DNA of 44,292 bases, from positions 1 to 44,292 of the forward strand of contig NZ_CAKZMP010000025.1 of NCBI RefSeq assembly GCF_937128705.1. Direction: 5' to 3'. This document shows positions 37,522 through 43,192 of this stretch, in pieces. The notes below the pieces were generated by a model, which saw only the letters and a list, made by a program, of their open reading frames with translations, did not search any database and had not been told where the DNA came from. Source of the DNA: an uncultured Kiloniella sp. (lineage in GTDB: Bacteria > Pseudomonadota > Alphaproteobacteria > Kiloniellales > Kiloniellaceae). The position numbers were made by a program, and so were the translations under genes. Every line of letters starts with the position of its first letter. Within the stretch, counting starts at the first letter, position 1.

Positions 37522-38529
37522 TTAGCGCATTGGAGGAGCGTAAAGAAGACCACCATCTTTCCATTGAGCGTTGATACCGCGCTCGATGTTCAGAGTATCA
37601 GTAAGGTTTCTTTTGAAAGACTCACCATAGTTACCAACGTTTTTAACTACGTTGTATGCCCATTTAGCGTCCAGACCAAGCTGCTCGCCCATGTTGCCTT
37701 CAGCACCAATAAGACGAAGAACAGATGGGTTTGTAGAAGAAGCCATCTCGTCAATGTTCTCAGAGGTCACACCAAGTTCTTCAGCAATGATCATCGCGTT
37801 AAGAGTCCAGCGGGCAATATCACCCCACTGTTGGTCGCCGTGACGTACGAGAGGACCTAATGGCTCTTTGGAAATGATTTCTGGAAGAACAATCTGCTCA
37901 TCAGGAGCGGAAAGTGTGGAGCGAAGAGAATACAGACCGGAAGCATCTGTTGTGTAAACGTCACAACGACCTTCGTCATATACTTTCCCGCCTTCTTCGG
38001 CAGTTGCAACTGGAACTGTTTCGTATTTCATGCCTTGAGCACGGAAATAGTCAGCCAGGTTAAGCTCAGTTGTTGTACCAGTCTGAACACAAACAGAAGC
38101 ACCGTCTAGCTCAGTCGCGCTGGAAACACCGAGTGATTTGTTTACGAGGAAACCTTGACCATCGTAGTAGTTAACGCCTACAAACTCAAAACCAAGGTTA
38201 ACATCACGGGAAAGTGTCCACGTGGTGTTACGCGCAAGCAGATCAATCTCACCAGACTGAAGAACGGTGAAACGCTCTTTAGAAGTCGTGGGAGTGATTT
38301 TCACTTTCATTGGGTCGCCCAATACAGCTGCTGCAACTGCGCGACATACATCAACGTCAAGACCTTCCCAAACGTTTTCTGCGTTAGGAGCAGCAAAACC
38401 AGGTAGAGGTGTTGCGACACCACAATTAAGCTCGCCGCGAGCTTTAATATCGTCAAGAGTACCAGCCTGAGCTGCTGTTGTCATTGCTGTGGCCGCTGCG
38501 GCCGCAAACAGGACTTTTCCGAATTTCAT
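37522..38529 (-). CDS. aapJ: General L-amino acid ABC transporter, periplasmic binding protein AapJ
   Basis: This is the soluble receptor that captures amino acids in the periplasm. Its 335 residues begin with a signal peptide, MKFGKVLFAAAAATAMTTAAQA, cleaved before GTLDDIKARGELNCGV. The SBP_bac_3 fold follows, with GLDVDVCRAVAAAVLGD, TTSKERFTVLQSGEIDLLARNTTWTLSRD, VCVQTGTTTELNLADYF, VYTTDASGLYSLR and a C-terminal NIDEMASSTNPSVLRLIG. The match in order and length to rhizobial AapJ and Rhodobacter BztA is clear. It is the promoter-proximal gene and is probably the most highly expressed of the four. AGGGAAG precedes the start. Confidence 0.95.
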   Translation of the reverse strand: MKFGKVLFAAAAATAMTTAAQAGTLDDIKARGELNCGVATPLPGFAAPNAENVWEGLDVDVCRAVAAAVLGDPMKVKITPTTSKERFTVLQSGEIDLLARNTTWTLSRDVNLGFEFVGVNYYDGQGFLVNKSLGVSSATELDGASVCVQTGTTTELNLADYFRAQGMKYETVPVATAEEGGKVYDEGRCDVYTTDASGLYSLRSTLSAPDEQIVLPEIISKEPLGPLVRHGDQQWGDIARWTLNAMIIAEELGVTSENIDEMASSTNPSVLRLIGAEGNMGEQLGLDAKWAYNVVKNVGNYGESFKRNLTDTLNIERGINAQWKDGGLLYAPPMR

Positions 38530-40627: not shown

Positions 40628-40650
40628 AAAATCATCATTAATACGAATAA

Positions 40651-40692
40651 ATAAAAGCTGCTCTGGTCAATTATGAGCAGCTTTTATTTTTT
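40651..40692 (+). terminator. Rho-independent terminator after hisI
   Basis: ATAAAAGCTGCTC (40651-40663) and GAGCAGCTTTTAT (40675-40687) form a perfect 13-base stem with an 11-base loop, followed by a run of six T. It lies 24 bases after the hisI stop. Confidence 0.92.
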
Positions 40693-40823: not shown

Positions 40824-41603
40824 ATGAATTCGGGTTCTGTTATCAGCGAAGAAGAAGCAGATAAACTCGCTGAAGGCGAAATGTTGGATGAAGCAAGAGA
40901 TGTGGCATCCAGTCTGGAAGTCAACCTTCAGCAAGTTCGAACAGGCGGACTGGATGGGAAAACTGCTGCTGAACGTTTAGCGCAAGATTCGTCTAACCTA
41001 AGATTTAAGGCAAAATCAGTAAATATACCGGGCTTAGCAGCCATAACCCATAGGCTGGATGAATATCTTTCCGGCCTAACAGATCTTGAACCCAAACACA
41101 TTCAAGACCTTCAAACCTATAGTGACAAGATTTCCGCGTTGCTTGACGGCGAAGCTTTACCAGCAGAAAACATTGCCGAAGTTGTGCGCTCTATGCCGCA
41201 CCAGATTACTTTTAATGTCGAAGACATCGAAATTACAAACACAGAAGTTTTGCTTGTGATCCCGCAAAAAACTGCTGGCAAGGTTGTGGCTCGTGAACTC
41301 GCAGCATGCGGATATCGTGTTACGTCACTAACGGAACCTCTGGAAGCAATCACAATGATTCTGGAAACAAAGCCGGATCTCGTCATAACCTCTATGGTTA
41401 TGCCACGACTTGGTGGGGCTGATCTCGCTTGCGCCTTGAAGGCAATGCCATCGACCAAAAAATCGCACGTCGCTGTGTTGACAAGCTTGCCATCTGATCA
41501 TCCAGACATGCAGGAATTACCAATGAATGTCGGTGTAATTCGTCGGGGAACAACCTTTGGTGACGACCTTGCTGACGTCCTGCAAAAATTTAATATTACA
41601 TAA
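40824..41603 (+). CDS. Degenerate Hpt-like plus pseudo-receiver signalling protein
   Basis: This 259-residue protein (ATG 40824, with TAGGTG seven bases upstream; the track uses a GTG at 40818) has two regions. The helical N-terminal half (about 15-110) looks like a histidine phosphotransfer bundle. Where such domains have A-H-D, it reads LAQDSSNLRFKAKSVNI, so the phospho-His appears to be Gln. The C-terminal half (about 142-257) follows the CheY fold: VLLVIPQ, PDLVITSMVMPRLGG, AVLTSL and GVIRRG. The acidic pair, the phospho-Asp (Ser at about 190) and the Lys are all replaced. It may act as a phosphorylation-independent scaffold. PilZ and CheZ genes lie nearby. I do not recognise a named family. 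Confidence 0.75.
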   Translation: MNSGSVISEEEADKLAEGEMLDEARDVASSLEVNLQQVRTGGLDGKTAAERLAQDSSNLRFKAKSVNIPGLAAITHRLDEYLSGLTDLEPKHIQDLQTYSDKISALLDGEALPAENIAEVVRSMPHQITFNVEDIEITNTEVLLVIPQKTAGKVVARELAACGYRVTSLTEPLEAITMILETKPDLVITSMVMPRLGGADLACALKAMPSTKKSHVAVLTSLPSDHPDMQELPMNVGVIRRGTTFGDDLADVLQKFNIT

Positions 41604-41635
41604 AAAAAGTAAAATCAGACATTGCTCATTTAGAA

Positions 41636-41686
41636 CCGCACGTTATGTATAAGGGGAACTTACCCCGCACAATGTGCGGTTTTTTT
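41636..41686 (+). terminator. Terminator or attenuator just upstream of ppiC
   Basis: CCGCAC-AAT-GTGCGG (41665-41679) followed by seven T is a compact terminator. A second copy of the 5' arm, AACCGCAC (41634-41641), can pair with the same 3' arm (GTGCGGTT), and GGGG...CCCC (41653-41666) offers another stem. The T-run ends only 29 bases before the ppiC start codon. Confidence 0.75.
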
Positions 41687-42105: not shown

Positions 42106-42402
42106 TTGGATACGGATAAGACAGACCGCCGTCGTCATAAGAGATATCAAAAATCAATCCTGGCATTGGTAAAAATCAATGAGCATTGGGAAAAAACTGA
42201 ATGTTTTGATATATCTGGTGGTGGAGTATGTTTAGATTCTCCAGCCCGTCCCGAACTCGGCAAAACCCTCGAGCTACATATTGAAGGATTTGGACGCTTT
42301 GAAGGGAAAACCATCCGACATCTTGCAGATGGTTTCGTCATTCAATTCAGCTCCTCAGAACATATCCTGAACCAGCTCGCGACAGATCTCGACAACTCAT
42401 AA
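42106..42402 (+). CDS. PilZ domain protein, probable c-di-GMP receptor
   Basis: This is a 98-residue single PilZ domain. The N-terminal RRRHKRY carries the RxxxR ligand motif, and DISGGGVCLDS matches the D/NxSxxG motif, so both parts needed to bind cyclic di-GMP are present. The start is TTG at 42106, supported by AAAGGGA six bases upstream. It lies 69 bases after ppiC on the same strand and converges on cheZ, with a shared terminator. A role in flagellar or surface behaviour is likely but not shown. Confidence 0.87.
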   Translation: MDTDKTDRRRHKRYQKSILALVKINEHWEKTECFDISGGGVCLDSPARPELGKTLELHIEGFGRFEGKTIRHLADGFVIQFSSSEHILNQLATDLDNS

Positions 42403-42463: not shown

Positions 42464-43192
42464 TTAATCAAATAACGCATCGATGTCATCTTGTGTAATG
42501 CCTTCGTTTTCGGCTGCAGGACCGTTCATAAGCTGATCATCACCTTCTCGACCATCTTCGACACCAACCGGCAGATCCATAAACGCTTCGGCACCCCAAA
42601 TGTTAATCATCGATACAATACGATCTTCAATAAAACGAAGCGTATTAATAATTTTCGTCATTCGTTGACCTGTAACATCTTGAAAGTTTGAAGCCTCAAG
42701 AATTGTAATCACATGATTAGCAATTTTGTCACAAGCCGTTTGCACATCCGAATCATCGCTCATTAATGCAGAAAGTTCATTTACGGTTGCTTCGATCTGC
42801 TCATTCGCATCCAAAATGCTATTTGTGGCTGTTTCCGTGGCCATAACAATCGCATCAAGCTCATTGGTTGACTGGGCAAAGGGATCATCAACATCATCAG
42901 GGTGTTTGATTTGGGCGATCTCTTTCTTCGTCTTCCCAATCATCCGAACCATTTGTGCAATTTCGACACGAACGTCTTCCGCGTCGTTAAAGCTTTTCTC
43001 GGCATCGGTTTGCTGAGCAGATGTATGCCGAACAGCTGCATTTGATTGTTTCAAGGCAACGATTTCGGACCTCAGCTCATTAATAGATTCAAACAACTGC
43101 ATGTTTGAAACATTGGCATTCGGTGACAATCCCCTACGAAGTCGAACTCCTCGTTCAGCAGCGTATTCTTTTCTTGGATCGTTATTACTCAT
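42464..43192 (-). CDS. cheZ: Chemotaxis protein phosphatase CheZ
   Basis: CheZ dephosphorylates CheY-P to end the tumbling signal at flagella. Its 242 residues are largely helical. The active-site helix reads EASNFQDVTGQRMTKIINTLRFIE, matching the conserved Asp and Gln (DxxxQ) of the family. The extreme C-terminus ITQDDIDALFD is the CheY-binding peptide, resembling the FliM N-terminus, after an acidic flexible linker. The N-terminal 60 residues are variable. It stands alone here without che operon neighbours, but a pseudo-receiver protein and a PilZ protein are encoded within 2.5 kb. Confidence 0.9.
   Translation of the reverse strand: MSNNDPRKEYAAERGVRLRRGLSPNANVSNMQLFESINELRSEIVALKQSNAAVRHTSAQQTDAEKSFNDAEDVRVEIAQMVRMIGKTKKEIAQIKHPDDVDDPFAQSTNELDAIVMATETATNSILDANEQIEATVNELSALMSDDSDVQTACDKIANHVITILEASNFQDVTGQRMTKIINTLRFIEDRIVSMINIWGAEAFMDLPVGVEDGREGDDQLMNGPAAENEGITQDDIDALFD

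Follow-up and report, generated by a model that had tools for sequence, protein, structure and literature searches.

A stand-alone alphaproteobacterial protein family joining an Hpt-type domain to a pseudo-receiver

Phosphorelay domains that lack their phosphorylation sites are rare: their share is 0.9% among Hpt domains and 2.0% among receivers (PMC12632262). Bacterial pseudo-receivers such as receiver 2 of PleD and REC1 of ShkA retain the CheY fold without the phospho-Asp and the acidic pair, and how they switch has been stated to be an open question (reviewed in PMC12632262). On the Hpt side, the plant protein AHP6 lacks the phospho-His and inhibits its pathway, providing a model for an inhibitory, phosphate-less Hpt protein (PMC3572949). 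Pseudo-receivers and pseudo-Hpt proteins are each already known; what appears to be new in the present work is a family in which the two are fused. No description of such a family was found in the open-access literature searched, though one may exist elsewhere.

The protein considered here is encoded in a 44,292-nt stretch of Kiloniella DNA (the window). Its C-terminal half shares with the bacterial pseudo-receivers a CheY fold devoid of the Asp and the acidic pair. Unlike them, it is fused to an Hpt-type domain and has no kinase or enzymatic output, and the clade to which it belongs (the window clade) keeps the active-site Thr and has a conserved Arg at the Lys and Lys+1 sites. The N-terminal half resembles the P1 (Hpt) domain of CheA in fold and profile; however, members of the window clade have neither the phospho-His nor the Gly at H+4, nor an attached kinase core. 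AHP6 is likewise an Hpt protein without phospho-His, but it is eukaryotic, single-domain and of independent origin, and its inhibitory action has been demonstrated, whereas any inhibition by the protein described here is conjectural. A Kiloniella paralogue (G000:C238:8250-, L002/L104) shares both the Hpt and the pseudo-receiver half with the window protein (26% identity) and has also lost the Asp; in contrast to the window protein, it still has its phospho-His and is extended at the C-terminus by a further receiver whose motifs are intact (Hpt-PsR-REC). Both types of loss are found in one small protein: the Asp is missing throughout, and close relatives differ in whether they still have the His. 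The family constitutes a natural comparison series for the role of each half without phosphate, in culturable marine bacteria.

The gene and its two folds

The open reading frame is intact, running from an ATG at 40824 to a stop codon at 41601-41603 and encoding 259 amino acids. An in-frame GTG two codons upstream of the ATG is a possible alternative start. Full-length orthologues, 57-99% identical to the window protein, occur in Kiloniella and related genera. The frame is genuine and lies at the coordinates given in a preliminary description of this DNA. The window genome is that of a Kiloniella; identity is 98-99% to the orthologues of K. majae, K. spongiae and K. litopenaei and 85-86% to that of K. 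laminariae. The gene is kept in 9/9 Kiloniella genomes, full-length in every sampled one, and is present in every sampled genome of genera g2 (n = 8) and g4 (n = 4). The gene and its domains are as follows.

40824-41603 (stop included), + strand: whole gene, 259-aa Hpt-like plus pseudo-receiver protein (open reading frame; full-length orthologues)
40848-41192, + strand: pseudo-Hpt domain, residues 9-123, five helices, CheA P1-like (AlphaFold2 models, fold matches, profile matches)
41244-41588, + strand: pseudo-receiver domain, residues 141-255, CheY fold (AlphaFold2 model; PDB receiver matches by fold and profile; Pfam Response_reg)

The preliminary description had proposed an Hpt-like bundle followed by a CheY fold, in a layout not known from any named family. 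Structure prediction and PDB matches agree on both folds. An AlphaFold2 model of the full protein, built with 24 relatives, consists of five helices and a (beta-alpha)5 domain (mean pLDDT 85, pTM 0.79), and a fold search with this model matched PDB receivers (E 2.6e-6). Since only receivers were present among the top 50 matches, the N-terminal domain was modelled separately (45 relatives; pLDDT 94.5). The four best fold matches of this second model are CheA P1 domains, with TM values of 0.66-0.71 and weak Foldseek E values (0.016-0.08). Profile searches of the PDB find receivers and CheA P1 domains, which argues against chance resemblance: a profile of 24 orthologues matched receivers at E 7e-13 and CheA P1 domains at E about 2e-5, and a profile of the N-terminal domain (45 members) matched CheA P1 at E 1.4e-10. 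The top match of the latter profile (E 3.4e-16) is BRIC1, a designed repeat protein; the repeats matched in it resemble CheA P1.

Family models are less responsive. Pfam Response_reg (PF00072) scores the window protein at E 1.8e-6 and 28.5 bits, under its gathering cut-off of 30.2; Pfam Hpt (PF01627) does not match the window protein and matches 29 of the 45 family N-terminal domains. None of the NCBIfam models exceeds its curated cut-off, the best reaching 31.7 bits where 180 are required, in line with the absence of a named family. Altogether, predicted structure and profiles assign the N-terminal half to the four- or five-helix Hpt bundle and the C-terminal half to the (beta-alpha)5 receiver fold. 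The latter is a pseudo-receiver as the term is used in PMC12632262, a receiver still recognisable with its key phosphotransfer residues gone. The N-terminal half is classed as a pseudo-Hpt domain, derived from Hpt but without the status of a functional one.

Phosphorylation-site residues

The position of the phospho-His was set by aligning relatives that keep the HxxKG motif, such as L031 (AHSLKGFAGS) and the paralogue L002 (MHNLKGQGS). The codons corresponding to the phosphotransfer positions of both halves are listed below.

40992-40994, + strand: Ser57, Hpt phospho-His position (His in 36/88 rows of this column; Ser, Ala or Thr in 28/28 window-clade rows)
41004-41006, + strand: Phe61, H+4 position, Gly in most active Hpt domains (Leu, Phe or Met in 28/28 clade rows; Gly in 30/36 His-bearing rows)
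41259-41264, + strand: Ile146-Pro147, acidic-pair (metal) site (alignment)
41391-41393, + strand: Ser190, phospho-Asp site (Ser, Ala, Thr or Gly in the clade; Asp or Glu in 0/88 family rows)
41481-41483, + strand: Thr220, retained active-site Thr (Thr in 28/28 clade rows and 34/36 His-bearing rows)
41541-41546, + strand: Arg240-Arg241, Lys and Lys+1 sites (Arg-Arg in 28/28 clade rows)

In place of an HxxKG motif with a phosphorylatable His, the window protein has Ser57, Arg60 (at the Lys position) and Phe61. The preliminary description had named a Gln as the replacement for the phospho-His, a reading that the alignment overturns. Gln54 was rejected as the substitute: it lies three residues upstream of the His column, in a column mostly occupied by Arg among His-bearing relatives. 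The receiver assignments, on the other hand, were correct, with Ile-Pro for the acidic pair, Ser for the phospho-Asp and Arg for the Lys. The accompanying statement that every catalytic position was lost applies to the phospho-acceptors, the acidic pair and the Lys, but not to Thr220. Other residues of the clade are constrained as well: P147 and Q148 are invariant, and D/E79 and Y81 are each kept in 28/28 rows. Gly237 of the window protein occupies the Lys-3 position, where Y-T coupling uses an aromatic residue (PMC12632262). Because the needed residues are missing, neither half is predicted to be capable of normal His-Asp phosphotransfer. Replacement of the lost acceptors by a phospho-Ser is unlikely, since the clade has variously Ser, Ala, Thr and Gly at these sites.

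Distribution, order of losses and selection

Of 385 sampled alphaproteobacterial genomes, 46 (36/276 genera) yielded full-length relatives in profile searches, some with two to four copies. In a sample of 399 genomes of the phylum, 11 were positive, all of them Alphaproteobacteria, and no relative was found outside this class; no plasmid-borne relatives were found. The family is discrete: among the matches listed in an order-level search, full-length proteins (E <1e-38) are followed directly by single-domain ones (E >1e-13). In 63 genomes of the order searched permissively, no full-length relative keeping the Asp was among the matches listed. These stand-alone Hpt-pseudo-receiver proteins form an alphaproteobacterial family that had no name before.

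The possibility, raised in the preliminary description, that the replaced residues are uniformly lost among orthologues holds for the Asp, gone in all 88 aligned rows, and not for the His, which 36 of them (33 of 79 non-redundant rows) retain. As the His-bearing proteins are the more distant relatives, the double loss was not a founding trait. On a 79-row tree, parsimony requires 8 changes between His and non-His, and a scenario in which His is never regained requires 10 losses; these counts are approximate, as the tree, built without the motif columns, is a quick one with many weakly supported inner branches. The window clade (28 rows), with Ser, Ala or Thr at the His position and Leu, Phe or Met at H+4, has 100% SH-aLRT support. 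The pattern suggests that the Asp was lost first, in the family ancestor, and the His later, several times (about 8-10 losses). In nine loci (L092, L120, L110, L157, L122, L128, L029, L030 and L098), one acidic residue of the metal site is kept although the Asp is gone. The gene of the Kiloniella paralogue lies at G000:C238:8244-9470. Two aminotransferase genes adjoin it; both also flank family members in other taxonomic families (L150), and one does so in L147.

Purifying selection on the gene is very strong. Compared with K. spongiae, dN is 0.010 and dS 0.99, giving a dN/dS of 0.010, the lowest among six genes with a computable ratio (cheZ, 0.019; metC, 0.032; pilZ, 0.213). Values from K. 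spongiae alone were used, dS being saturated for hisI and for most comparisons with more distant Kiloniella. Across 22 rows of the clade, 56 of the 259 positions are invariant. The loss of both phospho-acceptors and of the metal site might in itself suggest that a former phosphorelay protein survives here as a decaying relic. Such a relic is refuted by this selection and by the full-length state of the gene in sampled Kiloniella, which leave it next to no probability. Recent decay, which the preliminary description had tied to orthologues keeping both His and Asp, is likewise excluded by the low dN/dS and the universal absence of the Asp; of the two residues, only the His is kept in some relatives. 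Elsewhere in the window, a minus-strand gene at 37522-38529, labelled solute-binding (gltI/aapJ-like) without a domain search, has a dS of 0.12 against K. spongiae, compared with about 0.75-1.9 in its neighbours; recent recombination or strong codon bias may be the cause.

Genomic context and proposed role

The preliminary description had noted cheZ and a PilZ gene within 2.5 kb. Both are indeed there, cheZ at 42467-43192 on the minus strand, 0.9 kb from the gene, and the PilZ gene (c-di-GMP type) at 42106-42402, 0.5 kb away. Two strong hairpins flanking the gene suggest that it has its own transcription unit.

40650-40688, + strand: hairpin followed by a T-rich tract, probable hisI terminator (-18.7 kcal/mol, z -5.7; absent from the consensus-scan list)
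41632-41683, + strand: hairpin with a T tract just downstream, probable terminator (-27.6 kcal/mol, z -5.3; core listed at 41665-41679)

The gene is probably transcribed alone, as a monocistronic unit. Greedy ORF calling being unreliable in the GC-rich relatives, neighbourhoods were judged from clusters and a limited number of Pfam scans, which indicate that the genomic neighbourhood of the family is not conserved among sampled loci. A nearby cheZ was recognised in Kiloniella and in none of the sampled loci of other genera; PilZ and PpiC neighbours are common only to Kiloniella and genus g4 (L107), and the neighbours identified outside Kiloniella are mostly metabolic or transport genes. An operon with cheZ or the PilZ gene is unsupported, given the flanking hairpins and these non-conserved neighbourhoods, and the tie to cheZ is a weak one. 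At the level of whole genomes, a CheZ homologue is present in 43/46 family-positive against 105/339 family-negative genomes (odds ratio 32; 385 genomes) and, within FliG-positive genomes, in 42/43 against 93/185; the statistic ignores phylogeny, a confounder, and counts the whole family, the His-less clade together with His-bearing members.

We favor the view, with a probability of about one half, that the window protein is a phosphorylation-independent binding protein of a phosphorelay, in which the pseudo-Hpt half docks and the pseudo-receiver half selects or senses. The receiver half of the family ancestor would already have been Asp-less and turned into a conserved binding or regulatory module, with the Hpt half still carrying phosphate; in the window clade, the Hpt half would then have lost the His and the Gly at H+4. 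The present pseudo-Hpt half would dock the receiver or kinase of a phosphorelay and pass no phosphate, while the pseudo-receiver half would set the choice of partner or sense a state. The net effect might be scaffolding or competitive damping of the target pathway. In yeast Ypd1, bulky residues at H+4 nearly abolish phosphotransfer and modestly weaken receiver binding (PMC6341664), a behavior that fits a binder unable to transfer phosphate. The preliminary description had also proposed partner binding without phosphorylation; the loss of both acceptors, the maintenance of the folds and the purifying selection speak for it, and the binding itself we infer. The target may plausibly be a motility or chemotaxis pathway; no pathway is named by context because the neighbourhood is not conserved. 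Extended to the whole family, the scheme becomes tentative: an ancestral Asp-less receiver half acting as sensor or adaptor, joined to an Hpt half repeatedly turned into a pure binder, would make these proteins phosphate-free regulators of a chemotaxis-type phosphorelay.

Other explanations were weighed against phosphorylation-independent binding. The receiver active-site surroundings are conserved throughout the family (T220, S221, G242, F245 and a mostly basic residue at 240, Arg in the window protein), a counter-point to the adaptor reading, as such conservation suits a ligand pocket no less than a protein interface. The altered pocket, with its clade-invariant Arg-Arg, might bind a small anionic ligand such as c-di-GMP or some other nucleotide, the pseudo-Hpt half then being a partner-binding output. 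The pseudo-receiver of Caulobacter ShkA does bind c-di-GMP (PMC7010744), and the neighbouring PilZ gene would suit such a ligand. However, the DDR linker motif of ShkA is not seen in the window protein, and the PilZ neighbour is shared with only one other genus and evolves fast, making a ligand sensor rather unlikely. Slightly less likely still is a chemotaxis component that acts as a competitor of CheY at CheA, or of CheY-P at CheZ or the motor. The kinship of the Hpt half with CheA P1, the co-occurrence with CheZ and the proximity of cheZ in Kiloniella render a chemotaxis role possible; yet the association is open to the phylogenetic confounding noted above, and competition with CheY, which the preliminary description had drawn from the nearby cheZ and PilZ genes, finds no support in a gene that appears to have its own transcript and whose neighbours in other genera include no recognised cheZ.

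A further alternative places a phosphate on a different residue; one candidate is His76 in helix C, which is conserved in 27 of the 28 clade rows and in 29 of the 36 His-bearing ones. The second His of CheA P1 is not phosphorylated. His76 aligns with this residue and coexists with the true phospho-His in relatives, which accounts for its conservation without phosphorylation; moreover, the Gly at H+4 needed for efficient transfer is replaced by a bulky residue. Hidden phosphorylation is on these grounds improbable.

Two observations concern the neighbouring genes themselves. The window genome (G000) contains four CheZ-family matches, one of which is the window copy, at 42467-42748. The PilZ gene is 69% identical to its K. 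spongiae counterpart and, with a dN/dS of 0.21, evolves far faster than its neighbours; it was unmatched in K. laminariae by the dN/dS script, yet a PilZ-cluster gene occupies the same place there (L118).
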